Source of the DNA: Sulfurovum sp.
Lineage (GTDB): Bacteria; Campylobacterota; Campylobacteria; Campylobacterales; Sulfurovaceae
Reading direction: 5' to 3'
Assembly (NCBI GenBank): GCA_021166685.1
Contig: JAJPEU010000010.1
Span: 248,001-312,000, forward strand
DNA: 64,000 bases
Shown here in pieces: positions 8,612 to 61,095 of this stretch (position 1 is the first letter of the stretch; every line of letters starts with the position of its first letter). The position numbers were made by a program, and so were the translations under genes. The notes under the pieces were generated by a model. The model made no database searches and was not told the origin of the DNA. It saw only the letters and a program-made list of their open reading frames with translations.

Positions 8612-8616
8612 AAAAA

Positions 8617-9300: not shown

Positions 9301-9474
9301 AAAAACCCTTTATTTTTTTGAAAGTATAGCAAAATTGCGATTTTATCGAGAAATCGAATCAATCGTTTTTGTATCCAGATGCAAAATGTAAAAATTGCAC
9401 TCCGACTGACATAATACATGCGATATAATACCGGATAAGTCAATAAAAATATTATATAATATAAAAGGCGTCAA

Positions 9475-43260: not shown

Positions 43261-43339
<79 letters not shown>

Positions 43340-43407
43340 TATTTTCTTCTGAATATTTTCACTGATCTGAATCTTTTTTTAAGCAAACAATTTACCACAA
43401 CAAATGT

Positions 43408-43484
<77 letters not shown>

Positions 43485-43673
43485 ACAAATTTCATCCCCT
43501 AAAAACCGTTAATATATGTCTCTTAACAAATCATAAATTATTTCTGTAAATACCGAGGGTACACTTTGGGGTACACTTTTGTTATGCACGTTACATTAGA
43601 TCAGGAATTCGTTAAAGAAAAATTGATCTAGATAACTATACTGTTTTTAGTATGTTCTCATGGTATATTTTAT
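43485..43673. other. Left end of island, non-coding
   Basis: No credible gene. It holds a pair of GGGTACACTTT repeats at 43557 and 43569 (12-base pitch) and a 15-codon open frame from 43583 that I do not call as a gene. Confidence 0.5.
43557..43579 (+). repeat. Integrase arm-type-like direct repeats, left
   Basis: Two GGGTACACTTT units at a 12-base pitch. The same pair, GGGTACACTTC and GGGTGCACTTT at the same pitch, lies next to the integrase start at the right end. Position and spacing fit arm-type binding sites of a tyrosine integrase. Confidence 0.5.
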
Positions 43674-44534: not shown

Positions 44535-44926
44535 TTGTTTCCTTATTATCTTATTTTTGCAAGTTCTAAAATTATTCATGTAATATAATAGTGAAATGTT
44601 TATCATTTTATGGAGTACTTTATGTATACAAATAATTTAATTTTTATACTGTAGCAATTATACTCATTATGACAGGATTCATCCTCTGCCTCCTTTTAGT
44701 CCCAAATACAGCAAGTAAACAATCAGATGTATCAGCAAAAACAAGATAAAAAAACAAACTATCAACTCCAGCAGATTAACAATAATCTTAATGGAATCCG
44801 GAATGGATATTGATTGAGAAAAGACCTTTAAGAGGTCTTTTTATAACAAAGTAATGCATATAATCATTCGCCAATTTTCTAACAAAAAGCTTCTAATCAA
44901 ATTTGATATGAGGTGTATTCTAAAAG
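44535..44926. other. Intergenic region with possible degraded small ORF
   Basis: On the plus strand there is a short hydrophobic frame (MTGFILCLLLVPNTASKQ..., 26 aa from about 44669) with an alternative upstream start in another frame (MYTNNLIFIL, stop). A one-base frameshift would join them into a roughly 40-aa single-helix protein. A terminator at 44818 follows. I cannot support a gene call. Confidence 0.3.
44818..44843 (+). terminator. Intrinsic terminator
   Basis: AAAAGACCT / AGGTCTTTTT stem with a short TTAAG-type loop and a T-run. It would end a plus-strand transcript from the region at 44600-44800; by symmetry it could also act on the minus strand. Confidence 0.6.
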
Positions 44927-45295
44927 CTATACTCCGTATCTGTAAGCTAGATAAACTCTAACCGTATCGAGTAAAGCTTCTGCATCCTTTCTGTGCTCAA
45001 AGAACGCTATAGGTATTTCATAGCCATGAATACTTAACGGTTTTATCACAACTGCAATGGCATACTTTTCATGAGGTGCTGTAGCACCACCTGGGTCTAT
45101 CTTCATTAAAGTAACACCATCTACAACGTCTGTATCTCTGCAGAAGATGTCCAGTTTCCAGTTTTCTACTAGTATCTTCTGTGTTTGTAAAGCTTTTATC
45201 TTTTGTTTGATTTTGTCTGCTTTGACCACATCATCACCAGTGAGAAGTTCACTAGATCTGGTATAGTCAAACAGTCTGTACTGACGGTACCCCAT
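44927..45295 (-). CDS. Island hypothetical protein
   Basis: A 122-aa soluble protein, last of a five-gene operon. Middle part with MKIDPGGATAPHEKYAIAVVIKPLSIHGYEIPIAFFEHRKDAEALLDTVRVYLAYR, which reads as a small α/β domain. No family recognised. Its ATG overlaps the upstream stop (TGATG, one base), so it is translationally coupled. Confidence 0.6.
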   Translation of the reverse strand: MGYRQYRLFDYTRSSELLTGDDVVKADKIKQKIKALQTQKILVENWKLDIFCRDTDVVDGVTLMKIDPGGATAPHEKYAIAVVIKPLSIHGYEIPIAFFEHRKDAEALLDTVRVYLAYRYGV

Positions 45296-45783
45296 CAGGC
45301 ACTCCTCTGTGCTTCAAGTACATGGATGACATAGTAGTTAATCACTGAGCCAAAGAGAGTCTCAATAGCACGCTTGAGTGCCCTTGTCTCTGCTCTTGCA
45401 TTCATAAAGTGAAGTCCACCATTACCTTTGAGTTCTGAGAACTCGCAGATGCCCATACTGTCTGATTGCCTTCGTATGGAGCCAGTTTCGATACGGAGTG
45501 TCCCTAAAACCTGAGCATACTTCTCGGTTAGCTGTCTATCCTGTATCTTCCAGCTGTAAGAGATGGGTAGAGATGAGAGTATCTTAATGAGTGCATCTCT
45601 TTTTGCTTCCCACACTCCATTGATGTTTACAAAGTCATTTGGGGTGAGAAGTTTGTATGCTTGTACTTTGGTCTGTTTGATAAGTTCATAATCTGTACGA
45701 TTCTTAGCAGCAATCAGGATTTCTCCTGTCTTGCTGTCTATCTCCATAATCTCTGCTCCTGTGCTGATAGTTCTTGTGCTCAT
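45295..45783 (-). CDS. Possible phage-type single-strand annealing protein
   Basis: A 162-aa protein. The segment ELKGNGGLHFMNARAETRALKRAIETLFGSVINYY near the C-terminus recalls the A-x-T/E-R-A-x-x-R-A-x-x pattern seen in Rad52/ERF-like annealing proteins of phages and mobile elements, and the N-terminal half has the short β-rich look of that group. The neighbour is Gp157-like, which often accompanies such recombinases. This is a weak, pattern-based call; it may equally be an unrelated DNA-binding protein. ATGA overlap with the upstream gene. Confidence 0.45.
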   Translation of the reverse strand: MSTRTISTGAEIMEIDSKTGEILIAAKNRTDYELIKQTKVQAYKLLTPNDFVNINGVWEAKRDALIKILSSLPISYSWKIQDRQLTEKYAQVLGTLRIETGSIRRQSDSMGICEFSELKGNGGLHFMNARAETRALKRAIETLFGSVINYYVIHVLEAQRSA

Positions 45784-46352
45784 GATGCTACCTCCTCTTT
45801 TGATACTAATGTTGTATTGTTTACACCCCTGCGTTTGTTGATTTTTATTTTTGCAGGTTTGGGAATACTTATCACCTCTAAACTGGAATGTTCTTGTATG
45901 ATATTGGCGTACTTGTCGCTGGTATAGAAGTGAAGCACTTTCTCTTCATCTATGACCTTCTTATAGAACCCTGCCTCAATGAGTGCTTCTTCATTGTGTA
46001 CTACCAGTTTGGTCTTGTCTGCTGTGGTTGCACCTGTAAATGTAATACTTGAGATGCCTGCACCATCGAGTTTGTCTATACCGTACTCTAGGAATATTTC
46101 TGCACCTGTAGTAAGTACAATCTCTTTTGCTGTTTTAAGACTGCTCTTGAGCTCCTGAAGCTCTTTTATCTCTTCGTCTATACTTTGTATCCTGTTGTCG
46201 ATAGAAAGGACTGAGAAGCCTATATAATCAGCTTTTCTTGTGTAGTCCTTGTCTGATTCGAGGATGGCTCTAAATTCCTCTTTGAGCCACTCTGTCGTTT
46301 TAGCTGTCGCACTCTGTACTGTCTGTTCAAATCTGTATCTTGTTGTTTTCAT
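45780..46352 (-). CDS. Gp157-like phage protein
   Basis: A 190-aa protein with the layout of siphovirus Gp157-family proteins: helical N-terminus, a central coiled coil (SVLSIDNRIQSIDEEIKELQELKSSLKTAKEIV) and a β-rich C-terminal part with lysine-rich end (KPAKIKINKRR). Gp157 proteins are linked to phage recombination and to resistance of Streptococcus to phage; their activity is not settled. It begins 1 base after the preceding gene and overlaps the next by 4 bases. Confidence 0.5.
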   Translation of the reverse strand: MKTTRYRFEQTVQSATAKTTEWLKEEFRAILESDKDYTRKADYIGFSVLSIDNRIQSIDEEIKELQELKSSLKTAKEIVLTTGAEIFLEYGIDKLDGAGISSITFTGATTADKTKLVVHNEEALIEAGFYKKVIDEEKVLHFYTSDKYANIIQEHSSLEVISIPKPAKIKINKRRGVNNTTLVSKEEVAS

Positions 46353-46353
46353 C

Positions 46354-46575
46354 TTATGCTCCTAGTTTTGGATAATAGTCGATGTTGTTGACTGCTTTTA
46401 AAGTGTTATAGTGTACAATTGAAGCCCCTGTAGTTGAGGACATTTTGATGTCTTCTTCTACTTCTTTTGTATCACTTTCACTCACCTCTTGGTCGCATAC
46501 CCATTCCATATAGCTGACATATTGGTCAAACTCTGTCTCACGGATACGTTGTAGTTCATCTTTTATTTTTGACAT
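46354..46575 (-). CDS. Small acidic island protein
   Basis: Start at 46575, because AGGAGGTAATCATC lies directly before this ATG; the ORF-track start at 46596 precedes that site. The 73-aa protein is acidic (KEVEEDIKMSS) with a helical front half (MSKIKDELQRIRETEFDQYVSYMEWV). No family recognised. It is between ardA and the Gp157-like gene. Confidence 0.6.
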   Translation of the reverse strand: MSKIKDELQRIRETEFDQYVSYMEWVCDQEVSESDTKEVEEDIKMSSTTGASIVHYNTLKAVNNIDYYPKLGA

Positions 46576-46656
46576 GATGATTACCTCCTGTGTCAAAACG
46601 TGTTACTGACTGCATAGCAGCACTGCTGGTTCTAGTTTAGGCACTTTACGGTGCAG

Positions 46657-47193
46657 TTAGCCAATGTACTCATAGACATCACCGTCTATCTCCCAATAGG
46701 TTCCGTCATGCTCAAGGTCTCTAGCGATACCGTCATAGTCAATGTTGTTGGCGATAAGGTCTGGGATATCTTTGAGGTTGTAGCAGCTATCTATGAGGTC
46801 ATAGGCGACATCTTCCATCGTGTAGTTGTGGTAGACCGTGACATCTTCCGCTCTGCTGATGGCATCTTCTATATCTATAGTGATACCCTCATCAAGTAGG
46901 AACTTGACTGCTTTGAGTTTGTTTTTGGGAAGGTCTGAGAGTAAGTTCAGTTCATCATTGAGTTCGTAGATGTTTTCATATTCATCTATCTCTTTAATAT
47001 CTATATCATCCCATTCATAGTCAGTGATGAAGTACTCTTCATGGTTCTCTTCTCCTGTTACCTGTTCACCTTCACTAAGTACTTCTGAGATGGCTTGTGA
47101 GAGCTCAAACTTTGTAAGTGGTAGCTGAATCCACGTTCCTGATAGACAGCCTGCGTTATAGGCTGCTAAGTCTGTTAAAAAGATTTTTAACAT
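46657..47193 (-). CDS. ardA: ArdA-type antirestriction protein
   Basis: A 178-aa strongly acidic protein with ArdA marks: IFLTDLAAYNAGCLSGTWIQLP at the N-terminus (AAYNxGxLxGxWI/L), YFITDYEWDDIDIKEIDEYENIYELN in the middle, and the C-terminal NIDYDGIARDLEHDGTYWEIDGDVYEY. ArdA dimers mimic bent B-DNA and block type I restriction enzymes during entry of mobile DNA. It heads the five-gene operon, with AAAAGGAG before the ATG. The same island carries its own type I system. Confidence 0.88.
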   Translation of the reverse strand: MLKIFLTDLAAYNAGCLSGTWIQLPLTKFELSQAISEVLSEGEQVTGEENHEEYFITDYEWDDIDIKEIDEYENIYELNDELNLLSDLPKNKLKAVKFLLDEGITIDIEDAISRAEDVTVYHNYTMEDVAYDLIDSCYNLKDIPDLIANNIDYDGIARDLEHDGTYWEIDGDVYEYIG

Positions 47194-47498
47194 GGTTGAC
47201 TCCTTTTGGTTTGATTTAGTTTAGACTCATTGCGGAGTTGGAACCAGTAAGGGAGAGTGGTTTTGGGCTTGCGTGTATTTTTGATGGGTGCGATAGCAAT
47301 TTAAGTGAAGGAAGGAAGGAAGGTGTCAGTGAATCGGTGTAGTTTGTATTGGTAAGAAAATTTGTACTGGTTTGAAAAAAAGGATTGTTATTGTTGAGTC
47401 GGGGGGTGGTGTTCAGGTTAAGTCCAGTAGAAGCTCCTACTGGGGTCGTGCTAAAATATTATGGGTTGGGGGATATTTTGGAAAAACAACTTAAATGT
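47194..47498. other. Intergenic region upstream of ardA
   Basis: No gene found. It holds a short AAGG tandem (four units near 47309) and a 7-bp inverted repeat CCAGTAG / CTACTGG near 47432. The ardA-operon promoter should lie here but I cannot pick a clear -10 box. Confidence 0.4.
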
Positions 47499-48506
47499 TT
47501 ATGGCATTGTTTTTTGTGAAGAAGCTACTGATGTAAGATTTTTATCTAAACTTACACAACGAACATTCTTTTTAATAAATTTAATGTCGGAGTTACCGTA
47601 TCCAGCCTTGAAGAACACACCCCATACACTATCAACTTGTGTATTGTCAGTATTCAATGTGTCACTCCAATATGTGTAAATGTCGAAACCTTCTGCCTGA
47701 TAGCATGATTGATAACTAGTATTTGCACGATTTTTATCGGTGATTATGTTCCAATCATCATCACCATTAATCACATTTGTTCCTCCACAATCACTCACAA
47801 CTTTTCTCAACTCCTGATAAGTAGGTAATTTTCCTTCGCTAGCCTTGCAAATATTATAAGCGCTATCCCAAGAAGCTGTACAAAATCCGGCACTTATGGT
47901 TCCACCATTAGATGTACACGTATAATCGGATGGGTCTATCCACTTACCATTATTTTTTATTTTTTTATTCAAGCTATTATTGGATTCAGATTGTAGTTTT
48001 TTTTGATAATCTGGCTGTTGTTGTTGCTCATTTTTGGAAACTAGGATTGAGATAATTATACTGATAATTAAATATATGGCAAATAAAATCATAAAACCAT
48101 TTGAATTACTTGATTTTGCTTCTTTTTGTAATGGTTTTCGAAATCTCTCTTTCCGCTCTTTTTCTTCCCTTTCCCTTTCTTTTTCTTCTTTCTCCTTTCT
48201 CTCTTTAGCCTTCTTTTCTTCGAGAATAGGATCCTTGAAGCCATTTTTTATATAAGTAAATAGACTTTCTCTTGACATCTCATCAAAAGCAATTTTAAGT
48301 GCATCAAATTGATCCTTAATCGACTGTACTCTGTATTGCATATACTTTGCTTCAGCTTTTGACTCTATTCCATCAGAATGAGCCAAAGCTTTTGCCCATA
48401 AGCCTTTGGTGCGTATGCCTTGCTCAATCTCTTCAAGTACATATTCATATAATATTTCATCTTGAGCTCGATTTGAAATTGCCATTTTTTTTAGTTTGTT
48501 AAACAC
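47499..48506 (-). CDS. Coiled-coil transmembrane protein with C-terminal DUF1566/Lcl-like domain
   Basis: A 335-aa protein starting at GTG 48506 (AAGG about 9 bases before); an ATG at 48482 is the alternative. Layout: cytoplasmic N-terminal domain (ILYEYVLEEIEQGIRTKGLWAKALAHSDGIESKAEAKYMQYR, about 15-65), a long K/E coiled coil (about 110-130), one transmembrane helix (GFMILFAIYLIISIIISILV, about 143-162), and an extracytoplasmic cysteine-rich domain with WDSAYNICKASEGKLPTYQELRKVVSDCGG, the pattern of DUF1566/Lcl. Function unknown; carried as cargo. Confidence 0.65.
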   Translation of the reverse strand: MFNKLKKMAISNRAQDEILYEYVLEEIEQGIRTKGLWAKALAHSDGIESKAEAKYMQYRVQSIKDQFDALKIAFDEMSRESLFTYIKNGFKDPILEEKKAKERKEKEEKEREREEKERKERFRKPLQKEAKSSNSNGFMILFAIYLIISIIISILVSKNEQQQQPDYQKKLQSESNNSLNKKIKNNGKWIDPSDYTCTSNGGTISAGFCTASWDSAYNICKASEGKLPTYQELRKVVSDCGGTNVINGDDDWNIITDKNRANTSYQSCYQAEGFDIYTYWSDTLNTDNTQVDSVWGVFFKAGYGNSDIKFIKKNVRCVSLDKNLTSVASSQKTMP

Positions 48507-49027
48507 TGAGATACCTTATTTAATTATCTATTATCAAATATTATACATAAATCAAACTCAATTTAACTGCAACTCAATCTTAATAAATGTGTAATTCTTA
48601 TATTTACACTCCCTTTAAGTATTTTTCACACCTTTTTAGCAGATAGGATTTAATCTGATATCTTTAGAGCCATGAAGATGACCGCATATACCTCCTATAC
48701 GGGAAAGTTAGCATTTAGGGTGGGTTTACATACTAGAAAATGAGTATTTTGGTCACTTATATTATAAAATATAAACTATCTATTTGTTGCGTATGCAAGG
48801 CTGCCACCGAGATAAATATCACGATGTATGAGCCAAGTAGATATAAGACGTTCCCGTAGACACGGAGTGCAAACGTAGTGTCAAGGTGGTTGTCGTTAGC
48901 TACGCAGGTGAAGGAGTCGTGGAGTTTATCGAAGAGTGGATAGGCTTGCATACACTATACACAGTCTGACAAAAATGTCTTTTATGGGAAAACTCAGATG
49001 AGTTAATATAGAAGAAATAATTTTATC

Positions 49028-49097
49028 CACCGTCTACGCTACTGGTACTGCAATCGGTTCGCTTTGCTCACCTCAATTGTACCCCGCTTCGACGGTG
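49028..49097. repeat. Nested inverted repeat, possible structured RNA
   Basis: Outer stem CACCGTC / GACGGTG and inner stem GGTAC / GTACC with a roughly 30-base apical part. The two nested helices in one 70-base element suggest a fold, on either strand. Confidence 0.35.
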
Positions 49098-49142
49098 ACA
49101 GAGGAAGAAGAAGGTAGATATATTTTAAAATACTGTTATATC

Positions 49143-49254
49143 ATCATGTCATTTGTGACGGATATGACACACTACAAATATAATTTTATGAGCTATAGAT
49201 TATGTAAATAAAAAATGTTTTTTACAGTGTCATCTTCGTCACAAATGACATGAT
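49143..49254. repeat. 28-bp inverted repeat downstream of hsdR
   Basis: Arms at 49143-49170 and 49227-49254 match at 25 of 28 positions across a 56-base centre. Each arm contains GTGACGnnkATGACAC, related to motifs at 56906 and 56992. It lies 11 bases beyond the hsdR stop. Confidence 0.6.
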
Positions 49255-49265
49255 TTTAATCCTAT

Positions 49266-52200
49266 CTATTTACTCCACTCGTCACTGAGCACTTCAGCCT
49301 GTCTCATGACCATATCCATTGCTTGTGCCTGTTTGTCTGGTGGATACTTGTAGCGTCTTAGGATAATCCTGATCATATTTCTCATCTTGGCTCTTACGCT
49401 TTCTCGCTTCTGCCAATCCACACTTACACTGCTTCTTAGTTTTGAGGTAAGCTCTTGGGCAATCTTTTTGAGCACTTCATCGCCCATCTCTCTCAGCGCA
49501 GATTCGTTTTCCGCCAGTGCATCATAGAAGGCAAGCTCATCAAAGCTCAGTCCTAACTCTTCTCCATGTTTAGCAGCTTTTGCGAAGTCTTTAGCCATCT
49601 GTATCAGCTCTTCTATGACTTTTGCAGTTTCTATGGCTCTGTTGTGATACTTGCCCAGTGTTGCTTGGAGTCTGTCGCTAAACTTCTTCTCTTGGACTAC
49701 ATTGTTTCTTGTTTTGGCTTTGATGTCATCCCTGAGCAGTCTTTCCAGTAGTTCCACGGCTAAGTTCTTGTGAGGCATGTTTGCCACATCTTCCAAGAAC
49801 TCGTCACTGAGTATGCCTATGTTGGGTTTCTCTAGTCCTACGAGTGAAAAGATATCTTCCACTCCTTCTGAGATAAGGGCATTGTCTATAATCTGCTTAA
49901 TGGCTTTGTTGGGGTCTTTCTTGGTTGGCGTAGCGGTTCCAGCTTTCTGTATCACTGCTTTAACAGCTTGGAAGAAGGCTATCTCTTCTTTGTGTGCTTT
50001 GGCTTCATCTAGCGTGCCACATAGACTGAACGCTTTAGTCAATGACAGTACTTCATCTTGGTATCGTTTCTTTCCATCATCAAGCCCTAGTATATGGTTA
50101 GCTGCTGGAGCTAAGAGCATATGCGCTTTAGTCTTGTATTCCAAGTAGTCAAACCCATGATACATATTGCCTACGATGTCCAATCTCTTTAGCATCTCTG
50201 CGAGTGCTTCTGCTATATCTAACGTGCCAGTACCTCTGCCTCCTGCTCCAGTGTAAGTCTGTAGTGCATGTTTCAGCTCATTGGCTATACCGATATAATC
50301 AACGACTAAGCCACCTTTCTTATCTTTAAATACCCTATTTACCCTAGCGATGGCTTGCATGAGGTTGTGAGACTTCATAGGCTTGTCTATGTACATAGTA
50401 TGCAAGCTTGGTGCATCAAACCCCGTTAGCCACATATCTCTGACTATGACCAGCTTTAGTTCATCATCTACATCTTTGATGCGCTTCTCTAAGTCTTTCT
50501 TGATTTGCTTGGAGTAGATATGTTTCTGTAGCTTGGCATCATCACTGGCTGAACCTGTCATGATGATTTTGATAGCACCTTTGGTTGGGTCTTCACTGTG
50601 CCACTGCGGTCTAAGAGCAACGATAGCATCATAAAGGTCTACTGCTATCTGCCTACTCATGGCTACTATCATACCTTTACCGTCTATAGCGGCAGTTCTC
50701 TCTTCAAAGTGTTCTACTAAGTCTTTGGCAATCTGTTTTATCCGTGGTTCTGAGCCTACCAGCTTCTCTAAAGCACTCCACTTGCTCTTAAACTTCTCTT
50801 TATCGGCTGTTTCTTCATCTATTACCAGCTCACCCACTTCTGCATCTATCTCTTTGAGTACAGCTGCATCCAAATCCAGCTTAGCCAGTCTGCTCTCATA
50901 GTAGATGGGAACAGTCGCACCATCCCTGACGGCATCTTCTATGTCATAGATAGAGATATAATCCCCAAATACGCTTCGTGTGTCTTTGTCTTCACTCTCT
51001 ATGGGTGTACCTGTAAATCCGATGAATGTAGCATGAGGTACTGCATCTCTGAGGTGTTGCGCATAGCCGTACTTGAACTGACCCGTTTCACTGTTTAGCA
51101 TCGCATCAAACCCGTACTGGCTTCTGTGCGCTTCGTCTGCTATGACTACGATGTTGTCTCTTTCGCTGAGTACGGGAAATCTGCTCTCTTCTTTTTTGAG
51201 TGAGAACTTCTGCATGGTAGTAAAGATGATGCCGCCAGAGGGCTTGTTTCTAAGCATCTCTCTAAGCTCATCTACACTGTCCACCTGTACAGGGTCTTGA
51301 CCCAGCAGCATCTTGGCACTGCTAAAGGTAGCGTAAAGCTGACCATCCAAGTCATTTCTGTCTGTAACGATGAGAAGGGTAGGATTTTTCATCGCTGCTT
51401 GTTTGGTGAGCTTCCCTGCAAAACATGCCATAGAGATGGACTTCCCTGAGCCTTGCGTGTGCCATATGACACCCCCTCTTTTTGAGCCGCCTGTAGAAGC
51501 TTCTATGACTGAGTGTACCGCTTCACGTACTGCGTGGAACTGGTGGTAGCCTGCTATCTTCTTGATGATACTCTTGCCGTCATCTTCAAAGAGTATGAAG
51601 TTCTGTAGATAATCCAGTAGATGTTCTTTGTCAAAGAATCCTTTAATGAGCGTATCGAGCTCATACTCCAGAAGCGGTCTGTCGTTTTCATCTTTGATGG
51701 TTCGCCAGTACATGTAACGCTCATCTGTAGCAGTCAGTGACCCTACTCTGGCATGGATACCATCACTGATGACTAAGGCTTCATTGTAAACAAATAAATC
51801 CTCTATCTCGTCTTTATAGGTTTGCAGTTGGTTGTAGGCTTTGAAGATGTCTGCATTGGTATCTGCTGGGTTTTTTAGCTCTATCACCGAGACAGGCAAA
51901 CCGTTGATGAAAACAACAAGGTCGGGTCTTCTGTTGCCTTTAGTGCCTTTGATGGTGTATTGATTGACCACCAGAAAATCATTGTTTGCAGGGTTCTCAA
52001 AGTCGATGAGCTTTACCACATCCCCTCTGGTTTCATCACCGTTTTTTACCTCTACGGAGATACCCTGCAAGAGCATCTGATGGAAAGCTCTATTGTTTTG
52101 TATAAGGGTGGCATGTTGTGGTTTTTTGAGTAGATGGATGGCTTCATCTATGGCTGTAACAGGAAGTGTAGGATTGAGCTTTGTGAGGGCTGTATGAAGT

Positions 52201-52370
52201 CTGTTGGATAGTAGCACTTCTTGGTAGTTGGCTCTTTGAGGAGTCTCACTATCGGGTGCTATGTCGTAGCCATGATAGTAGTCGTATCCTAACTCTTTAA
52301 ACCACTCCAGGGCTAGCTGTTCTACTTGGTCTTCATTTATCACCACTTGTCTCCTCAAGTAGCTAGCCAT
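49266..52370 (-). CDS. hsdR: Type I restriction enzyme, restriction/translocase subunit
   Basis: A 1034-aa HsdR. The N-terminal PD-(D/E)xK nuclease has Asp150 and E164-L-K166 ([20 protein letters not shown]). SF2 motor: [11 protein letters not shown] (Walker A, 304-314), DEAHRSQYG (II), GFTGTP (III), [22 protein letters not shown] (V) and [18 protein letters not shown] (VI). The C-terminal region should contact the methylase. It translocates and cuts foreign DNA at a distance from unmethylated sites. Last gene of the operon, 6 bases after the DUF3037 gene. Apparently intact. Confidence 0.95.
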
Positions 52371-52376
52371 TTATCT

Positions 52377-53093
52377 CTATTGAGCAATTAGTTCTAAATA
52401 GTGAGCTATTTGTTCTTTTTCTTTATATGGATATGTGTCTACAAAGTTATGCTCTAATTTCTTTAAATATTGATTTTCTGGATTAATTTTGCCAGAAATA
52501 TTCAAAAAGTCATATCTACTATTATTATTATCTCGAGTCGCCATAACCATTCTGGTTACATCATGCTTTACAGTCATTTTACCAACGATTGAATGATGTA
52601 TAATATGTTTTTTTATACTCTCTACTTCAAAATCAAATTCGGTAGACTGATTGGTTCGTAAACGAATATAATTTCTAAAAGATTGACTTTTTGCAAGTTT
52701 AATACTTTGCTCTAAAATCTCTGCTTTTTCATCTTTTTTATTTTCTGTTTGAATTTTAAAGCCTATATAATCGTCAAAAATTTCTTCAAGTACTTCATCT
52801 TCCATTTTTTCAGATGCAGATTTTCTTTCCTCACTAAAACGGAAGTTATGGAAATAGTGTTTACCTTCCAATAAACGATGATCTAACGCTAATTCATTTA
52901 GATATTCAATTACGCCTAAAAATTTCTTTTTTTCTCCAATAAGTGCAGAACAATACATATTCCTAGCTTCATCTTCTTTCAGAATACGGTTCTTTCCTTT
53001 TCCAGAAGTGAGCATAACACCAACATTAATAAACTCATCACTCAAAATATGAGGGAAATAGCGTATCACTTGATAGGTATAAATTTGTCTCAT
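52377..53093 (-). CDS. DUF3037 protein, partner of the HipA-like kinase
   Basis: The start at 53093 is fixed by AAGGAGGGGAAG directly before the ATG (238 aa); the ORF-track start at 53114 is within the upstream gene. The N-terminus YTYQVIRYFPHILSDEFINVGVMLTSG is the DUF3037 hallmark (Y.v.RY.PD...gEfvNVGV.l). The rest is helical and charged. DUF3037 genes commonly follow a HipA_2-type kinase gene, as here. Biochemical role unknown. Sited between hsdS and hsdR in one operon. Confidence 0.8.
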   Translation of the reverse strand: MRQIYTYQVIRYFPHILSDEFINVGVMLTSGKGKNRILKEDEARNMYCSALIGEKKKFLGVIEYLNELALDHRLLEGKHYFHNFRFSEERKSASEKMEDEVLEEIFDDYIGFKIQTENKKDEKAEILEQSIKLAKSQSFRNYIRLRTNQSTEFDFEVESIKKHIIHHSIVGKMTVKHDVTRMVMATRDNNNSRYDFLNISGKINPENQYLKKLEHNFVDTYPYKEKEQIAHYLELIAQ

Positions 53094-53106
53094 CTTCCCC
53101 TCCTTT

Positions 53107-53859
53107 CTATTCAAATATCTTGTTGCTTACAGCTCGTGCACATAAAATCACTTCAAGATATATCCTGTCATTATAGGTTTCCCACTCTTGGGGGATTTCC
53201 TCTATAATTTCGTGTATTATACCTTCTATTTCCTGCGGTTTCAAAGTAACTCTAGTTAAATTATTGCGCAATAAGTAGCCTGGTCTTTTTACTACATTGC
53301 ATGTCTGAAAATACATCATTCTGTCATTAATGGTGTTCGTGATAATATCTTTGTATACATCTATACTATCCATTGCCAGCCCCCAATCTATCGCATAATA
53401 TCGATTACTGACTGTTTGATCTTTTAAGATGTTTGGATTCTCAGTATCACGATCATCATTTAGCAAAATATTATCTATAGTTCTAAGATGCTTGATAAAA
53501 TTTTGATTTTCAATCTCTCCCTCTACTTTTTCACAATTGTCTTTATAGGGTATTGCTATATTTGTTCCTAAAGAATTAGACATATAGAATAAACTAAGCG
53601 GATCGATAGTTGCATTTTCTGCAAGTTCTAGTGCCGCTTCATCTATCTGTATCAACTTTAATTCCAACGGAGCAATCTGCCAATCTAGTTTCTCTAACAA
53701 TTTATACGCTATAAATTCATTGGTAATTCCACGGTCTTTCCTTGCCATGCCATCGGTACGAAATTTTACGACATAAACTTCACCGTCACTCGCTTTGACT
53801 TTTATGGGTTTGGTTTTTCCATAAGGCAAAGTTTCTATAATTTTATCGATATAAAGCAT
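53107..53859 (-). CDS. HipA-like kinase nested in the restriction operon
   Basis: A 250-aa kinase-fold protein of the small HipA-like (HipA_2) group. ATP-binding Lys32 in VYVVKFRTDG, helix C Glu in TNEFIAYKLL, a catalytic loop IDNILLNDDRDTENPNIL with N-x-D-R-x-x-x-N (Asp136, Asn141), and the metal-binding YAIDWGLAM (Asp158). It is much shorter than HipA (440 aa) and lacks HipA's N-terminal subdomain, and there is no HipB-like HTH partner. Its ATG overlaps the hsdS stop (TAATG). A protein- or small-molecule kinase is inferred; the target is unknown. Confidence 0.78.
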   Translation of the reverse strand: MLYIDKIIETLPYGKTKPIKVKASDGEVYVVKFRTDGMARKDRGITNEFIAYKLLEKLDWQIAPLELKLIQIDEAALELAENATIDPLSLFYMSNSLGTNIAIPYKDNCEKVEGEIENQNFIKHLRTIDNILLNDDRDTENPNILKDQTVSNRYYAIDWGLAMDSIDVYKDIITNTINDRMMYFQTCNVVKRPGYLLRNNLTRVTLKPQEIEGIIHEIIEEIPQEWETYNDRIYLEVILCARAVSNKIFE

Positions 53860-55178
53860 TACAATCTCTCACTATTGATATCTGACACATCCAGCTCACC
53901 TGATAGGAGTTTTGGAAGAAGACTGTCTCTTGTTTTTTGGAGGGTTCTTATTTGTTTTATATTCTCATTAAATTTATCAAATAAAGGCTGTGTTATATTG
54001 CCAAATACTTGCATTAATTGATATGTTGGTATCAGCATATCAAAAGAATCTAGCCAACTTTTACTCAAGTGCAGAACTGTTGTTCCAGATGTGTGCCCTA
54101 AAATATAACCTTGAAATGATGGCGTCTTAAACAATTGATATAGAAACATTTTATTTACTTTATCTGTAATAGTCCTGACAATTCCAACATCTAATGAAGC
54201 CACAAATACATCTACTTCTTCGTCATCTAGCACTATTGCGGGTTTGCCTATAACATCTGCTGCTTGTGTTACATCTGTATAGGCAATAACCATTTCCCCC
54301 GGCTTAACTACTTGCTCTGGTTTATATGTCCCAGTATACGGTTTTAAGCCATCGGTTCTGTACCCACCGCCTCTAAGAAATGATTTTAAAGTAACTAATG
54401 ATGTTCTAGATTCTTGTAATTCACTGCTTTTGTATGACTTTCCCTTTACTACTTTTATATGATTTGAAATGGTTTCAACTTCCCACCCCTTAGGAATCAT
54501 CCCCAACTCACTCTCTACAAACTCACTAGGAAATAACTCCAATACCTCTTTGGAAATCCCAAGCTCCTTAGCTACTGCCTCTACCTCTTCATCACTGCTA
54601 CACCCTGCTTTAGCATGTACAGGGTCAAAATCTACAAACCAAGACTTAAAGAGTGCCTGAGCCATCTCTTCTAGTGTCTGATTCATCTTGCGGTTGAGTT
54701 CTATTTTGTCATCTAGGGTTGAGAGGATGTAGGCTATCATTTTTTGGGTTGGGAGGGGTGGCAGTTTAACCTCATAATTCATAATTGCTGATTTATCACC
54801 CCTAGGCATTTTAGTACCCTTAGCCGATGTAACTGTGTATTGAATAAAGGCTTCATCAGAGATTATATAATACAAATATTTATCATGTAAAACTTCCAAA
54901 TTTTTACTTCTGATCACCAATACATCTGTGGATACGCCGCCAGAGAACTTTGCAAACCATATCTTCTTAAAATATGTTCGTATATTAGAAAATAAAACAT
55001 CTCCCATTTCAAATGAATTAGTTTTGGGTACTGATGGCAAGGATGATGCTAAAGTAATGCCTCCCTTATCTGGAAGCATATTTTCTGTAGATATATACTC
55101 CTCTAAGTCAATATCCTTTGTATTTCTTTTCTCAGATACATAAGTAGCAATCTTAGATAGCTCAGACCTCATACCCAA
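53859..55178 (-). CDS. hsdS: Type I restriction enzyme specificity subunit
   Basis: A 439-aa HsdS with two target-recognition domains and two helical spacers: TRD1 about 1-150, conserved helix 1 about 150-195 (PPLPTQKMIAYILSTLDDKIELNRKMNQTLEEMAQALFKSWFVDFDPV), TRD2 about 220-390 (GMIPKGWEVETI...) and helix 2 at the end (NIKQIRTLQKTRDSLLPKLLSGELDV). The FKSWFVDFDPVHAK and LLPKLLSGE segments are typical. It directs a bipartite recognition sequence that cannot be read from the protein. It overlaps the end of hsdM by 17 bases and the kinase start by 1 base. Confidence 0.93.
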   Translation of the reverse strand: MGMRSELSKIATYVSEKRNTKDIDLEEYISTENMLPDKGGITLASSLPSVPKTNSFEMGDVLFSNIRTYFKKIWFAKFSGGVSTDVLVIRSKNLEVLHDKYLYYIISDEAFIQYTVTSAKGTKMPRGDKSAIMNYEVKLPPLPTQKMIAYILSTLDDKIELNRKMNQTLEEMAQALFKSWFVDFDPVHAKAGCSSDEEVEAVAKELGISKEVLELFPSEFVESELGMIPKGWEVETISNHIKVVKGKSYKSSELQESRTSLVTLKSFLRGGGYRTDGLKPYTGTYKPEQVVKPGEMVIAYTDVTQAADVIGKPAIVLDDEEVDVFVASLDVGIVRTITDKVNKMFLYQLFKTPSFQGYILGHTSGTTVLHLSKSWLDSFDMLIPTYQLMQVFGNITQPLFDKFNENIKQIRTLQKTRDSLLPKLLSGELDVSDINSERL

Positions 55179-56757
55179 GCCCCGTCAAGTTCTTTATTAT
55201 CATCCCTTCAAGTCGTGCCGACTCTTTAAACTGCTCACTAAGAGTTGCCGTAAGTGCTTCCATCTTCTCACTAAACGGTACTCCATCATCTTCCTCTTCA
55301 GCGGTACCCACATATCGCCCAGGGGTGAGAATATACTCTTGCTTTGCTATCTCTTCAGTGGTTGCAGCATAAAACTCTCCTGCTACATCTTCATAGCCTG
55401 TGTTTGTTTTAAACTTGTGAAACATATCTGCAAGTGCTTTGGTGTCCTCATCACTAAATGCTTTTTGTTTTCTGTCTAGCATGTGCCCTACATTTCGAGC
55501 ATCTATAAAGAGTGTTTTGTCTTTTTGGGCTTTGTTACGGTTGAGTATCCATATACAAGCGGGTATCTGCGTATTGGCAAAGAGTTGTGAAGGAAGCGCT
55601 ACGATGGCTTCTATAAGGTCGGCTTTTACCAGTGCCGTTCTGATGTCCCCCTCTCCTGAAGTGTTAGAACTGAGTGAGCCATTGGCAAGCACAAGTCCTA
55701 CTACTCCATGGGGGCTTGTGTGGTGCAGCATGTGTTGTATCCATGCGTAGTTGGCATTGCCTTGGGAAGGGGTGCCGTACTTCCATCTTGCATCTCCTTC
55801 TAAGCTACCATCCCACCATTCGTTTTGATTAAAAGGTGGGTTAGCCAGTACAAAGTCTGCTCTGAGGTCTGGATGCTGGTCACTCGTAAAGGTATCTGCT
55901 GGCTCTTTTCCGAAGTTGAAGTCTATACCACGAATCGCCATATTCATAGCAGCCAGTCTCCATGTGGTTGGGTTTGATTCCTGCCCATAGACAGAGATGT
56001 CCCCTAGCCTTCCGTTGTGAGCTTCGATGAACTTTTCAGAAGAGATAAAAAAACCACCGCTTCCCATAGCAGGGTCATAGATACGACCTTTGTATGGCTC
56101 TATCATCTCTACTATGAGATTGACTATGGATTTTGGTGTGTAGAACTGCCCACCTTTTTTACCCTCTGCTGCTGCAAATTGACCTAAAAAGTACTCATAC
56201 ACATGCCCTAGTATATCTTTTGATTTTAATGTGTCGTGCTTAAAAGGGATGGTTGCAATGAGGTCTAACAGGTCTGCCAGTTTATTTTGTTCTATCTGTA
56301 GCTGTGCGTAGTTTTTGTTGAGGATGCGTTTAAGCTTGGGGTTCTCTTTTTCTATGAGCTCCATCGTGTCATCGAGTAACTTACCCGCACCCTTGAACTC
56401 ACCACCTAGAGGCATAGGTGAACCCATGGAGAGTCTGATATTATCTTGCAGGTAATGCCATCTAGCAGCCTGTGGTACCCAAAACACATTTTTCTCGGTG
56501 TAGTAGTCTCTTGTCTCTAGCTCTTCATCAATCACCTCTTGCTCAACGTCTTCACCCAAGAAGTAGTCATGGTCTGGATTGGCAAACGCAACTTTGAGCT
56601 CCAGCCTTCTTGTCTCAAAGCTGTCTGATACATACTTGACAAACACCATACCCAGTACCACATGCTTGTAGACTGCTGCATCTAATGAGGGAAGCAGTTT
56701 ATTTGCAGCTGTCCATAGCTTTTTTTCTAAATCTTGTAAGAATTTCTGTTCTGCCAT
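55162..56757 (-). CDS. hsdM: Type I DNA methyltransferase subunit
   Basis: A 531-aa N6-adenine methylase with HsdM N-terminal helical domain (FLQDLEKKLWTAANKLLPSLDAAVYKHVVLGMVFVKYVSD), SAM motif I in YDPAMGSGGFFISSEKFI, and the catalytic NPPF in LANPPFNQNEWWDG. GKKGGQFYTPKSIV is also characteristic. It methylates the site defined by HsdS to protect host DNA and is required for restriction. First gene of the operon, with AGGACGC before the ATG. Confidence 0.95.
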   Translation of the reverse strand: MAEQKFLQDLEKKLWTAANKLLPSLDAAVYKHVVLGMVFVKYVSDSFETRRLELKVAFANPDHDYFLGEDVEQEVIDEELETRDYYTEKNVFWVPQAARWHYLQDNIRLSMGSPMPLGGEFKGAGKLLDDTMELIEKENPKLKRILNKNYAQLQIEQNKLADLLDLIATIPFKHDTLKSKDILGHVYEYFLGQFAAAEGKKGGQFYTPKSIVNLIVEMIEPYKGRIYDPAMGSGGFFISSEKFIEAHNGRLGDISVYGQESNPTTWRLAAMNMAIRGIDFNFGKEPADTFTSDQHPDLRADFVLANPPFNQNEWWDGSLEGDARWKYGTPSQGNANYAWIQHMLHHTSPHGVVGLVLANGSLSSNTSGEGDIRTALVKADLIEAIVALPSQLFANTQIPACIWILNRNKAQKDKTLFIDARNVGHMLDRKQKAFSDEDTKALADMFHKFKTNTGYEDVAGEFYAATTEEIAKQEYILTPGRYVGTAEEEDDGVPFSEKMEALTATLSEQFKESARLEGMIIKNLTGLGYEV

Positions 56758-56893
56758 TTAGCGTCCTGATAGTTGTTTTAAATATTATAACTGATTAGGC
56801 TATGGGTGACTTTAATACGAATGATTATACAGAACAAATAGAGTGCAGTTTTCAGAAGATTTGGTGTGATTTTCAATGGAGTATGGGGATAAG

Positions 56894-57007
56894 TGTGTGA
56901 CACCCGTGACGTCGATGACGTCTTAAAAGATAAAAAAGTTACCATAGCTGATGGTATGGTGGGTAAATAATCTTTTATTTGAGTGTCACGCAAGACATCT
57001 GCGTCAT
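56894..57007. repeat. Inverted motif pair between hsdM and the primase-helicase gene
   Basis: GTGACGTCGATGACGT at 56906 and, inverted, ATGACGCAGATGTC (complement of 56994-57007), each with a nearby GTGACAC-like sequence. They resemble the arms at 49143-49254. The second overlaps the stop of the helicase gene. Candidate origin or binding sites. Confidence 0.45.
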
Positions 57008-58512
57008 GCAGTGTCTTGTTTTTTCATGTAAAACCCTCTACCTATGTTTTTGCGTCCATTTTCAAAACCACGCTCTGTGAGTTCTTTGGAAAATTCGCTT
57101 TTTACCAGTGCTCTGTAGCCTGAGTCTTTGCACAGGCTCTCATACTCTTTGTAGATGTCTTTAATCAATCGAAACGAAGTTGCATCTGGCACAAGAGTGT
57201 ACTCTTCAAGGTATAAAAGCACTGTATCGCTTTCTCGCTTATAGGCTTGGAGTGCCTCTGTTGCAGCCGTACACTCGCTAAACTTCTTTTGTGCTAACAA
57301 TCTGTCAAGCCCTTCTATCACCCAGTTGAGCACCCCTGCCAATTCACTTTGTATGATTTTGGTATGCAGCTCAGGGTCTTTCTCTTCATTGGAGATTTTT
57401 ACAGTAAAAGGAATAATCAAAAAACGTCTAAAATAGGCATCGGATCGCTCTAGCACCTGCGGGAGCTTGTTGGCGTTGAATACAAATTTGCAGTTGTTCA
57501 CCAAATCAAAGCCTGTTTTATACTTTTCTCTGGCTGCTACAGATTCTCCCGATACCAAACGTTTAAATATATCTACATCGATATCTTTCCCTCTGATTTC
57601 TGAGCCATAATTGAGCAGTTTGTCTGCTATCTTTGACAAGTTGTCCATGCTATCGTATCCTGTGAGGTCTCCAAGCGTTTTTGTGGATACATTCTCTTTC
57701 CCAAGAAGTGCATTGATAATTTCAAACATTACACTCTTTCCGTTTTGTCCACCACCAAGCAGTATCATTGACACTTCAAGTTTGAGATGCTTCACAAATA
57801 CATATCCAAGAAACTCTTGCAGTACCATTTGGCTTGAGGGGTCTGGAAGCACCCTGTCTAGGTACCTATGGAACAACGGAGCTTTTGCAGACGGGTCATA
57901 CTTAAAAGGCAAAACATAGGTCATATAGTCCAGTGCATTATGCTCTTTAAGGGTATGACCATTTTCTGTAATCTCAAGCGTTCCATTGAGTAGGTTGATC
58001 TTTACAGTGTTGTCGTCAGAGACTTTATTCATTAGTGGGGCTGTACTAACAATCTGCTCCAAGCCCTTTTTTGTAAAACCAGAAGTCTGTGCTGTTGCTG
58101 GACTATAGTAGCCTAGCTTTGCAGCAGCTATCCCAAAAAAAGTTTTTAGCTTCTCATCTTCAACTCTTTGCCACACTATCCCGTTAAAAAGATAAGAAAC
58201 ACCATTTTTTTTGGCAAGCATCAATCCATGCCTACTTGCTACTTTTCCGATTTCACATGCGATAGCTACGACATATAAATCCTGTGGAACTTTAAGCGGG
58301 TCAACCATGTCCGGGCATTCATTCATTCGGTATTTGAGGAGTTCATCACCGTAGTCGTGCTGCAGTGTTTGCACAAGTTCGACACTTTTAATGTTAGATA
58401 ATATCTTCAAGAGAATCTCTTCGACTGTATTCAAATGAATATCCTGTGTTTCATAGCAGTTTTCTTCAAAAATCGCTGGAGTAAAATATGGTATAATCTC
58501 AGATGTTTTCAT
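57004..58512 (-). CDS. P4/D5-type replication helicase (SF3, primase C-terminal family)
   Basis: A 502-aa protein with a D5-N-like domain (about 90-230, NGIVWQRVEDEKLKTFFGIAAAKLGYY) and an SF3 helicase core: LLGGGQNGKSVMFEIINALLG (Walker A, 252-260), NYGSEIRGKDID (B region), VFNANKLPQVLERSDAYFRRFLIIPF (sensor/C motif). The primase domain of full-length P4 alpha is not seen in the first 90 residues. It would start replication of the excised element. AGGAGGCATAG precedes the ATG. It is preceded by a small ORF overlapping its start. Confidence 0.85.
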   Translation of the reverse strand: MKTSEIIPYFTPAIFEENCYETQDIHLNTVEEILLKILSNIKSVELVQTLQHDYGDELLKYRMNECPDMVDPLKVPQDLYVVAIACEIGKVASRHGLMLAKKNGVSYLFNGIVWQRVEDEKLKTFFGIAAAKLGYYSPATAQTSGFTKKGLEQIVSTAPLMNKVSDDNTVKINLLNGTLEITENGHTLKEHNALDYMTYVLPFKYDPSAKAPLFHRYLDRVLPDPSSQMVLQEFLGYVFVKHLKLEVSMILLGGGQNGKSVMFEIINALLGKENVSTKTLGDLTGYDSMDNLSKIADKLLNYGSEIRGKDIDVDIFKRLVSGESVAAREKYKTGFDLVNNCKFVFNANKLPQVLERSDAYFRRFLIIPFTVKISNEEKDPELHTKIIQSELAGVLNWVIEGLDRLLAQKKFSECTAATEALQAYKRESDTVLLYLEEYTLVPDATSFRLIKDIYKEYESLCKDSGYRALVKSEFSKELTERGFENGRKNIGRGFYMKKQDTA

Positions 58513-58600
58513 CTATGCCTCCTATCTCAGATATAATGGAAAATTTGGCTACATTGAGGCGGCAACCTCTGTAGCGTATTTTGATTGATTTTCTGTTCAT
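58499..58600 (-). CDS. Possible 33-aa coupled small ORF
   Basis: Too short for the ORF track. It begins MNRKSIKIRYRGCRLNVAKF and is basic. Its ATG overlaps the stop of the upstream 56-aa gene (ATGA) and its stop lies 13 bases inside the helicase gene, so it may serve to couple translation. No domain; the overlaps are the only support. Confidence 0.35.
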   Translation of the reverse strand: MNRKSIKIRYRGCRLNVAKFSIISEIGGIDENI

Positions 58601-58767
58601 ATAAAATCTCCTCTTGTTCCGTTGATAACTTTTCTGGCAAAGCTTTTTAAGCGTTGCGCCTCGTCCATATCATTAGCGTAAAACGCCGCCAGTACGACAT
58701 TTCCTGACATTACCCTGACACGATATTTCGTTCGTGTTCTCTGTTCGTCTACATAGATTTTTATCAT
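58597..58767 (-). CDS. Small basic island protein
   Basis: Start at 58767, where AAAGGATACCTT precedes the ATG and the ATG overlaps the stop of the upstream HTH gene (ATGA); this gives 56 aa rather than the 69 of the ORF track. MIKIYVDEQRTRTKYRVRVMSGNVVLAAFYANDMDEAQRLKSFARKVI reads as a small α/β protein with two strands and a helix. Function unknown. Confidence 0.55.
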   Translation of the reverse strand: MIKIYVDEQRTRTKYRVRVMSGNVVLAAFYANDMDEAQRLKSFARKVINGTRGDFI

Positions 58768-58958
58768 AAGGTATCCTTTGCATTGTCTTTTTGCTTTTCG
58801 ATCCATGCTTGAAGTTCTTCTACTTTAAAGTAGTTCCTGTTGCCTATTTTCACGGCGGGTATGAACTCACCTCTCATGTATAGCTTTGTCATGGTGTTTT
58901 TTTTGAGTCCGAAGATCTCTTCCATTTCTTTAAATGTTATTAGTTTTGGCATTTTCAT
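58764..58958 (-). CDS. AlpA/excisionase-like helix-turn-helix protein
   Basis: A 64-aa MerR-like winged-helix DNA-binding protein: LITFKEMEEIFGLKKNTMTKLYMRGEFIPAVKIGNRNYFKVEELQAWIE, the standard helix_turn_helix_17/AlpA pattern. AlpA-type proteins in P4-like elements activate the integrase or act as the excision factor. It starts the short operon that leads to the SF3 helicase. Confidence 0.85.
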   Translation of the reverse strand: MKMPKLITFKEMEEIFGLKKNTMTKLYMRGEFIPAVKIGNRNYFKVEELQAWIEKQKDNAKDTL

Positions 58959-59080
58959 GCTCCTGTTTATGTTGGATTTAACAGCGCTGTTAATGAAATA
59001 ATGCCTACCTGAGGCTCCATAGCAAACGTAAAAGTAAGGAAAAAATGGGAGTTTTGGGGATAAAAAGGAGAGATGCCCTA

Positions 59081-59722
59081 CTAAAGGGCGTTTGTGGCAA
59101 TTTTCTCTAAGATAATTTTGTTGTTTATTTCTGGTAAAAGTTTTATGAGTATATCTTTTAGGGCTTGTCTCTTCTGATTTTCTGCATATTTTTCTCTGAT
59201 ATGGATGGCTATTGTCAACTCTAGGGGTATATCATTTTCTTTAATTCCTAGATTTATGAGAGTTTGTTTGGTCTGAATGAGTTTTGTTGGTGAGATTTCA
59301 TGTGCATGACTAATAGCATGTAGGATTTTAGGATAAAGCTCACTTGCATGCTCAAGGTGTTCATTGCCTCCTTCATAATACTCTTGAAAGATTTTATCTG
59401 AAATGGCTGCAACATAATCTAATTCGATATCTACACCAAATACATCGTTTATGTACATGTTTGTACAATTGATCTCATATAAGACTAAATCTATTTCATG
59501 ATCAAGCGTTTCCTGATCCTTGAGATATTCTCGAGCCGTTATAGGTTCGTGACCATACTTTTTGATGTACTTGTTGTACATTTTTAGTTTGTCAGGTTTT
59601 TCTCCAGAGCCTGTTACAATAGTTCTTTTAAAATCATCAGTTTTTTGCTTCTCTTTTTTAGCCCTTTCTTTTCTTTCTTTTGAAGATATTGTATTTTTTA
59701 GTATTTCTTGTATTGATTTCAT
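59081..59722 (-). CDS. Hypothetical island protein downstream of integrase
   Basis: A 213-aa protein with a very basic N-terminus (SSKERKERAKKEKQKTDDFKR) and a helical remainder, no recognised family. It starts 3 bases after the integrase stop, so the two share a transcript. Lysine-rich head suggests nucleic-acid contact; this is a guess from composition. Confidence 0.55.
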   Translation of the reverse strand: MKSIQEILKNTISSKERKERAKKEKQKTDDFKRTIVTGSGEKPDKLKMYNKYIKKYGHEPITAREYLKDQETLDHEIDLVLYEINCTNMYINDVFGVDIELDYVAAISDKIFQEYYEGGNEHLEHASELYPKILHAISHAHEISPTKLIQTKQTLINLGIKENDIPLELTIAIHIREKYAENQKRQALKDILIKLLPEINNKIILEKIATNAL

Positions 59723-59725
59723 TTG

Positions 59726-60907
59726 CTACACCTCTACCCATTTGGTATCTGGGTCTATTTCACCATTTACCTTTTGCAGAAAGAAACTATAGACGCTGTC
59801 GGCTAATTTGGCGTTTGCGCTTGCATATCGTGCTGTGATTGAGCTTCTTGTATGTCCTAATACCAGCGCACTTACCTCTTCTGTGATACCGCTGTCACGA
59901 AGTATGGTAGCGATGATATGTCGGAGGTCATGAATATGTAGATCTTTTAGCCCTGCTGTTTCTAATACTTTTTTCCAATGATGTCGAATTGTTGACCCAT
60001 TCATTACAGTGTCTTTTTCACTTGGATGAATAAGATTTGTCTTATCTTCTAGGCTCTCGAACATTTCAGGTCGAAGTACGAATGTTAGTTTTTTACCGCT
60101 TTTTGAGTTGTCTTGATGGATATCAAACATGCCTTTGTCCAGATCTATATCTTTTATGCTGAGGGATAGTACTTCATTTAAGCGCCTACCAGTAGCAAGC
60201 CATGTAAAGACATGCCTATACTTGGGGACAGGATAAGCAAGCATAGCATCGTAGAGTTTTTTTACTTCTGGCAGACTCACCACAACTTCTCGTACATTAT
60301 TTAAATCTCCTACGTCTATTTCTGCAGGATTTAATTCATTAATTTTATTTTCTTTATAGTAACGCTTCATAAGTGGAGACAATGCTTCGACTACTTTTTT
60401 AGCTGTTCTGAGAGAACGCTGTTTTTTAATTTTAGAGATAAGAGATTCTATGTCTTCTCTAGTAATGTCTGTCAGAAGCATTTTAGACAGCTTGCTTGGC
60501 TTTATCCAGGCATTATAAAATGATTTCATATCTTTAGCCGTGGAAGTCTTCCATGATTCTTTATTATTTACTGTGGTTTCCTTGTGCTTAACGTAGCGTT
60601 CCCAATATTCATCTAGGGTCGGGACTTTTGTTTTTTTCTCTTTTGGCTCAAATACCGTACTTCTTTGCTCTGTTGCACTATCGATTGCTTGTAATAGTGT
60701 TTGATGCTTTGAAAATGTAAAAGTCTTCTTCATGGGTTTCCCATCTTTTTTTAAACGTAAAACCAACTTGAAGTCTTGTTTAAATTTTTTAGGAGCATTT
60801 GAAGAGTTAATTTCTTTGACTCCAGAAAAAGTGTCATCAATATCTACCAAATAGAGACCCTTACAATTTCTGTTCGGTAGATTTATCTTAATCAGAGTTT
60901 GTGCCAT
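59726..60907 (-). CDS. Tyrosine recombinase (site-specific integrase)
   Basis: A 393-aa phage-type integrase that would insert and excise the island at tRNA-fMet. N-terminal arm-binding and core-binding domains (about 1-190) precede the catalytic domain with Arg in WLATGRRLNEVLSL (about 241), the H-x-x-R box HIHDLRHIIATILRDSG (His326, Arg329), His in LVLGHTRSS (about 352) and nucleophile Tyr361 (TARYAS). All catalytic residues are present, so it appears active. It lies at the right end, with arm-like repeats just before its start. Confidence 0.93.
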   Translation of the reverse strand: MAQTLIKINLPNRNCKGLYLVDIDDTFSGVKEINSSNAPKKFKQDFKLVLRLKKDGKPMKKTFTFSKHQTLLQAIDSATEQRSTVFEPKEKKTKVPTLDEYWERYVKHKETTVNNKESWKTSTAKDMKSFYNAWIKPSKLSKMLLTDITREDIESLISKIKKQRSLRTAKKVVEALSPLMKRYYKENKINELNPAEIDVGDLNNVREVVVSLPEVKKLYDAMLAYPVPKYRHVFTWLATGRRLNEVLSLSIKDIDLDKGMFDIHQDNSKSGKKLTFVLRPEMFESLEDKTNLIHPSEKDTVMNGSTIRHHWKKVLETAGLKDLHIHDLRHIIATILRDSGITEEVSALVLGHTRSSITARYASANAKLADSVYSFFLQKVNGEIDPDTKWVEV

Positions 60908-60919
60908 ATATGTTCCTTA

Positions 60920-60961
60920 GGGTACACTTCAGGGTGCACTTTTGTAGATATAAGTGTACCC
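60920..60961. repeat. Integrase arm-type-like repeats, right
   Basis: GGGTACACTTC and GGGTGCACTTT at a 12-base pitch, plus one inverted copy (AAGTGTACCC at 60952), directly before the integrase ATG. Matches the pair at 43557. It may serve both recombination and integrase autoregulation. Confidence 0.5.
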
Positions 60962-61043
60962 TAATAGGCATAAATAGGAACTTTAATATATTTGTTATTT
61001 ACGCTATATAAGGGATTAGGAAGAATTAGGAATAGTTTTAAAT

Positions 61044-61095
61044 TCGGGCTCATAACCCGAAGGTCGTCGGTTCAAATCCGGCTCCCGCAACCAAT
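61044..61095 (+). repeat. attR candidate: right copy of 52-bp repeat (tRNA-fMet 3' fragment)
   Basis: A tRNA-fMet 3' part from the anticodon stem to the CCA without its 5' half. It matches 43288-43339 with one mismatch and marks the right end of the island. Confidence 0.75.

Follow-up and report, generated by a model that had tools for sequence, protein, structure and literature searches.

A small HipA_2 kinase and a DUF3037 protein, encoded between hsdS and hsdR in the 64,000-nucleotide stretch of Sulfurovum sp. DNA analysed here (the window), are best explained as a HipAD-type (PDC-M66) anti-phage kinase toxin-antitoxin pair that is autonomous of HsdR and occupies, as cargo, the slot between these two genes in a seemingly intact type I restriction-modification (R-M) system. 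The probability assigned to this reading is roughly 0.78. Nested within the R-M operon, the pair is probably a self-contained second anti-virus module. Both the HipAD module and the habit of nesting at the hsdS-hsdR position are already known, and thus the locus is a fresh example rather than a new type of system. The observations in its favour are family membership by sequence, integrity of the active site, recurrence, mobility and the pattern of decay. Counting against it are the low identity to the tested homologues (23-25%) and the short Pfam match of the DUF3037 protein.

The operon occupies a single strand in the order hsdM-hsdS-kinase-DUF3037-hsdR, with the coordinates and spacings given in the initial annotation:

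55162-56757, minus strand: hsdM, type I methyltransferase subunit, 531 aa (Pfam N6_Mtase, 1.4e-107; HsdM_N, 9.5e-19)
53859-55178, minus strand: hsdS, specificity subunit, 439 aa (Pfam Methylase_S, 2.3e-16; PADLOC Specificity_I, 1.2e-92)
53107-53859, minus strand: HipA_2 kinase, homologue of PDC-M66A and the HipAD toxin, 250 aa (PF20613, 4.4e-15; PDC-M66A, 1.1e-5)
52377-53093, minus strand: DUF3037 protein, homologue of PDC-M66B and the HipD antitoxin, 238 aa (PF11236, 1.8e-5; PDC-M66B, 2.1e-6)
49266-52370, minus strand: hsdR, type I restriction subunit, 1034 aa, apparently intact (Pfam HSDR_N, SWI2_SNF2, T1R_D3-like and T1RH-like_C; TIGR00348, 2.9e-200)

The Pfam assignments of all five proteins lie above the Pfam cut-offs, and full-length hsdM, hsdS and hsdR genes share one operon, as expected of a type I R-M system. 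The hsdS stop and the kinase start share 1 bp (TAATG), the DUF3037 ATG at 53093 follows the kinase stop after 13 bp, and the spacing between the DUF3037 gene and hsdR is 6 bp. A strong AGGAGG ribosome site stands just 5' of the DUF3037 gene, scoring -12.1 kcal/mol in the window versus -3.5 for the kinase. The generalization that the antitoxin has the stronger ribosome site was rejected, as it held in only 6 of 14 pairs, a count made with incorrectly placed DUF3037 starts for L007 and L010. A promoter scan gave a signal close to the shuffled level. The same gene order is found in a second Sulfurovum locus, L025, from a metagenome-assembled genome (G504), with identities to the window of 83% for the kinase, 75% for DUF3037, 87% for HsdR and 85% for HsdM. 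Between these two loci the dN/dS ratio is approximately 0.07 for the kinase and 0.13-0.18 for DUF3037, indicating purifying selection, with dS near saturation. Because the order is shared and both nested genes are under purifying selection, the arrangement is not a product of chance. In L025, a RES-domain protein of a toxin-like family (8874-10001) separates hsdS from the kinase and overlaps the kinase start by 1 bp.

The sequence features of HipAD (PDC-M66) are found in the window pair: a HipA_2 kinase with an intact active site, and an adjacent, downstream DUF3037 (HipD) gene. The catalytic motifs named in the initial annotation (K32, N134-x-D136-R137-x3-N141 and D158-W-G) were read correctly and are conserved among relatives, where K32, N134, D136, R137 and N141 are invariant and D158 is invariant or nearly so. 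Phage PhiR5_1, whose record annotates the pair as HipA toxin and HipD antitoxin, provides a link to the named system; the window kinase is 23% identical to its HipA over 228 aa (E=3e-8; profile match 98%), and the window DUF3037 is 25% identical to its HipD over 142 aa (E=2e-6; profile match 94%). On these alignments the window pair is homologous to HipAD (HipA toxin and HipD antitoxin, DS-6), and DUF3037 is the probable antitoxin, a role that the initial annotation overlooked, with a Pfam match in which just 26 N-terminal residues align to PF11236. The AF2 model of the kinase (pLDDT 82) has Fam20C-type kinases and the HipA-like CtkA as its top PDB matches, with modest scores. The DUF3037 model (pTM 0.50) gave no significant match in a fold search against the PDB, and inhibition by DUF3037 thus gains no support from structure. 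As the initial annotation also observed, there is no HipB-type antitoxin: the kinase is neighboured by hsdS and DUF3037, with no adjoining HTH gene as in HipBA. Neither protein falls among the PrrC/RloC-family anticodon nucleases, as both belong to other families in Pfam and PADLOC. Full-length HipA matches (399-451 aa) in the Campylobacterota profile search were excluded as belonging to another family.

The initial annotation held that such pairs have no settled function, a view not supported in light of the protection from phage that homologues confer on E. coli (PMC12548924, PMC13092281). In the retron-Sda1 operon, the HipA_2 kinase is required for defence against Bas51 and deletion of DUF3037 is toxic, while the retron is dispensable (PMC12548924). 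For DS-6, renamed HipAD, a catalytic kinase mutant is devoid of defence and a kinase-DUF3037 complex is predicted by AF3 (PMC13092281, citing Brenes and Laub 2025). The PDC candidates of PADLOC were nominated through "guilt-by-embedding", according to the account of Payne et al. 2024 within PMC12988326. Because the homologous HipAD has been experimentally tested and works without restriction genes, the function of the pair is less open than had been held.

Recurrence was surveyed by profile searches of overlapping sets of Campylobacterota genomes, and the frequencies apply to Campylobacterota. Small HipA_2 kinases or their remnants were found in 24 genomes, in the following contexts:

Type I hsd operon in or beside the kinase (12/24; 11 with a kinase and 1 with a kinase remnant): G000, G504 (L025), G518, G636, G138, G385, G014, G202, G147, G759, G645, G131
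CI-type repressor as neighbour (5/24): G170, G073, G568, G188, G193
Other or unresolved context (7/24): G540, G406, G210, G292, G687, G633, G083 (truncated kinase)

The pair therefore recurs inside hsd operons in this phylum, and the outcome named in the initial annotation as refuting it, a pair mostly outside defence loci and in no further hsd operon, was not observed. Among the hsd-associated genomes, G504 is the one whose hsdS and kinase are separated by the RES-domain gene, G759 has the kinase adjoining an hsdR fragment, G645 carries it at the operon end, and G131 retains a kinase remnant with DUF3037. The gene orders differ (M-S-K-D-R, R-K-D-(x)-S-M and R-M-S-K, where K is the kinase and D is DUF3037), and so several hsd families, at least three operon families, host the kinase. 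In the phylogeny of the kinase, five changes of the hsd label are needed, of which well-supported branches enforce three, and hsd and prophage members interleave. The pair is likewise found without hsd genes, in phages, prophages and elsewhere. In E. coli, the phage version occurs in 289 of 5,426 genomes, and in the four records inspected (PhiR5_1 and three genomes) its neighbour is a CI-type repressor, within lambdoid regions. A position directly downstream of a CI-type repressor is also seen in Campylobacterota and E. coli prophages or prophage-like regions, namely L040, L041, L083, L085-L087 and L089-L091. A kinase search of viral contigs returned no matches, and a profile search of genome contigs, using an alignment with a conserved stretch, found L025 alone.

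The tight insertion between S and R had been taken in the initial annotation to imply functional linkage, an argument not supported by the contents of the slot itself. Upstream regions of 36 hsdR relatives were sampled, of which 31 were assessable in having both S and R recognised. The gap was occupied by at least one ORF of at least 100 aa in 27 of these 31, and in 23 the ORF lay on the same strand. The contents include the following:

Hachiman: L050, L052, L059 (L052 assigned solely from the size and order of its genes alongside L050)
Dsr1: L072
AbiP2: L064, L076
DRT4: L067
AriA/OLD-like: L070, L060
RloC/PrrC-like AAA_13: L056
GmrSD-like: L051
FRG with PDC-M04: L057
PDC-S19: L068
PDC-S22: L053
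PDC-S42: L049
Mrr-STAND: L063
Fic: L081

In Campylobacterota the S-R gap serves generally as a docking site for unrelated defence systems, known and candidate. Since the slot holds such a variety, an inference from position to function is weakened, and a dedicated regulator of HsdR is argued against. The junction may also be empty, as in L046, where hsdR is 80% identical to that of the window and follows hsdS at 59 bp.

Decayed copies of the pair bear on the roles of its two members. In L045 (G131; 8200-9800, minus strand), the kinase is missing residues ~24-206 and with them its entire catalytic core, while DUF3037 retains an open frame from end to end (53% identical to the window) and hsdR is full length (74% identical); this DUF3037 is an apparent orphan antitoxin. 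In L043 (G147), DUF3037 is frameshifted, the metal-binding Asp of the kinase is replaced (D158 to G) and hsdR is interrupted. Read from these sequences, the decay in both loci fits a toxin and antitoxin, of which the antitoxin could be lost only once the toxin was dead. The copy in Campylobacter phage PP935708 (L024:6749-7500) is a poorer fit, with an intact kinase and a DUF3037 frameshifted after ~117 aa; the truncated protein may be enough, or the record could contain an error.

The operon travels on an integrative element of 17.8 kb (~43340-61095) inserted in tRNA-Met, delimited by the recurrence of a 52-nt tRNA-Met repeat next to an integrase. Besides the hsd operon, the features of the element are:

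43288-43339, plus strand: attachment repeat of 52 nt, the 3' part of tRNA-Met (43261-43337; tRNA called by ARAGORN)
61044-61095, plus strand: second attachment repeat, beside the integrase, 98% identical to 43288-43339 (no tRNA called by ARAGORN)
59726-60907, minus strand: tyrosine integrase (Phage_integrase, 2.8e-21)
57004-58512, minus strand: P4-type primase/helicase (TIGR01613, 1.5e-51; D5_N, DUF5906)
46657-47193, minus strand: ArdA-type antirestriction protein (PF07275, 6.6e-29)

An ArdA-type antirestriction protein and a type I R-M operon thus share one element. In L025, the same operon adjoins a different integrase (34% identical).

Under the preferred reading, the HipA_2 kinase would be held inactive by DUF3037 (HipD) and released upon infection. 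The released kinase would phosphorylate a host factor, most likely a translation factor, going by the analogy of HipA and HipT, and the resulting growth stop would keep the phage from propagating. The pair would be transcribed and mobilised together with the R-M genes yet act without HsdR. Activity, trigger, target and HsdR independence are here what we infer for the Sulfurovum copy. That DUF3037 may neutralise a toxic kinase is supported for the homologue (PMC12548924) and agrees with the decay of L045 and L043, and phage protection by the window pair would follow the protection demonstrated for homologues (PMC12548924, PMC13092281). Of the two roles proposed in the initial annotation, an abortive-infection arm is supported, in that this is a defence-type module with matching anatomy; the trigger suggested there, kinase firing upon restriction failure, may apply.

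Such a trigger is central to a different account, in which the pair acts as a PrrC-like guard: the HsdM/S/R complex would silence the kinase or be sensed by it, and a phage or plasmid antirestriction protein that disables the complex would cause the kinase to fire. The precedent is PrrC, encoded within a type IC locus, kept silent by EcoprrI and switched on by Stp, an antirestriction peptide (PMC2610378, PMC12707154). Recurrence of the pair across several hsd families, the retention of kinase, DUF3037 and hsdR at 75-87% identity between the window and L025, and the presence of ArdA on the same element all favour a guard. Nevertheless, homologues are found, and function, where hsd genes are missing (PMC12548924, PMC13092281), the S-R slot houses unrelated modules, the DUF3037 of L045 persists without a functional kinase, and hsd and prophage members are intermingled on the kinase tree; a guard is accordingly considered unlikely. 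A narrower form, doubtful to a marginally greater degree, would confine the change to the hsd-embedded HipAD lineage, rewired such that kinase release depends on the R-M complex or on its inhibition, as for PrrC, with the prophage relatives remaining autonomous. If true, rewired HipAD would guard type I restriction by means of a kinase.

Two further accounts dispense with a guard. The pair could be an addiction or passenger module whose main effect is to stabilise the element or the R-M operon and which does little against phage; this would suit its toxin-antitoxin anatomy on an integrative element and its frequency in prophage-like regions. Such a module is improbable given the measurable, kinase-dependent phage protection afforded by homologues (PMC12548924, PMC13092281). 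The other role raised in the initial annotation, phosphorylation of HsdR (or HsdM) as a means of adjusting restriction, for instance while the element is being transferred, draws on adjacency and likely co-transcription only, and is the most improbable of all. Homologues work without hsd genes, phage and prophage copies have no adjoining hsdR, and relatives of the window hsdR persist beside an empty junction (L046) or a kinase that has lost its core (L045).

Comparison with known systems places the window pair closest to HipAD (DS-6, PDC-M66), with which it shares both families, their order and adjacency, conserved catalytic residues and residence on mobile elements. It differs from the E. coli phage version in sequence, as quantified above, and in its hsd rather than lambdoid immunity context; additionally, the tested DS-6B has an extra DUF1829, whereas the window DUF3037 protein is of 238 aa. 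HipBA and HipBST likewise employ a HipA-superfamily kinase toxin controlled by a neighbouring gene, but their antitoxin is HipB (HTH) or HipS, while the window kinase is minimal and partnered by DUF3037. The nesting has its own parallels. In the RRDM island of EPEC, the toxin-antitoxin defence pair DarTG2 lies between hsdS and hsdR of a type I R-M operon, a site described by the authors as a potential recombination hotspot (PMC12255303); this is an unrelated toxin-antitoxin family and not a kinase, and its operon starts with an RptR repressor gene, of which none was seen in the window operon. PrrC in EcoprrI and the rlo genes of Campylobacter jejuni, the latter from the same phylum as the window copy, are also translation-disabling effectors within type I hsd loci (PMC2610378, PMC12707154), although they are anticodon nucleases of other protein families, and control by the R-M enzyme belongs to PrrC. 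TgvAB of Vibrio cholerae is a two-gene defence embedded in the type I R-M cluster of VPI-2 and protects independently of HsdR restriction activity (PMC11411939), but it is a GmrSD-like, modification-dependent restriction system and no toxin-antitoxin.

The locus links the recently tested HipAD family to the older observation of extra genes in Campylobacterota type I hsd operons. Occurring in at least three hsd families and beside prophage repressors, the module forms a natural series in which to ask whether nesting alters the conditions under which a toxin fires, and the matched loci L025 (kinase present), L046 (absent) and L045 (core deleted) allow a direct test of that effect. In L093, a YhcG-type nuclease (DUF1016/PDDEXK; 1387-2415) lies between hsdM and hsdS of an operon that also has the kinase pair.
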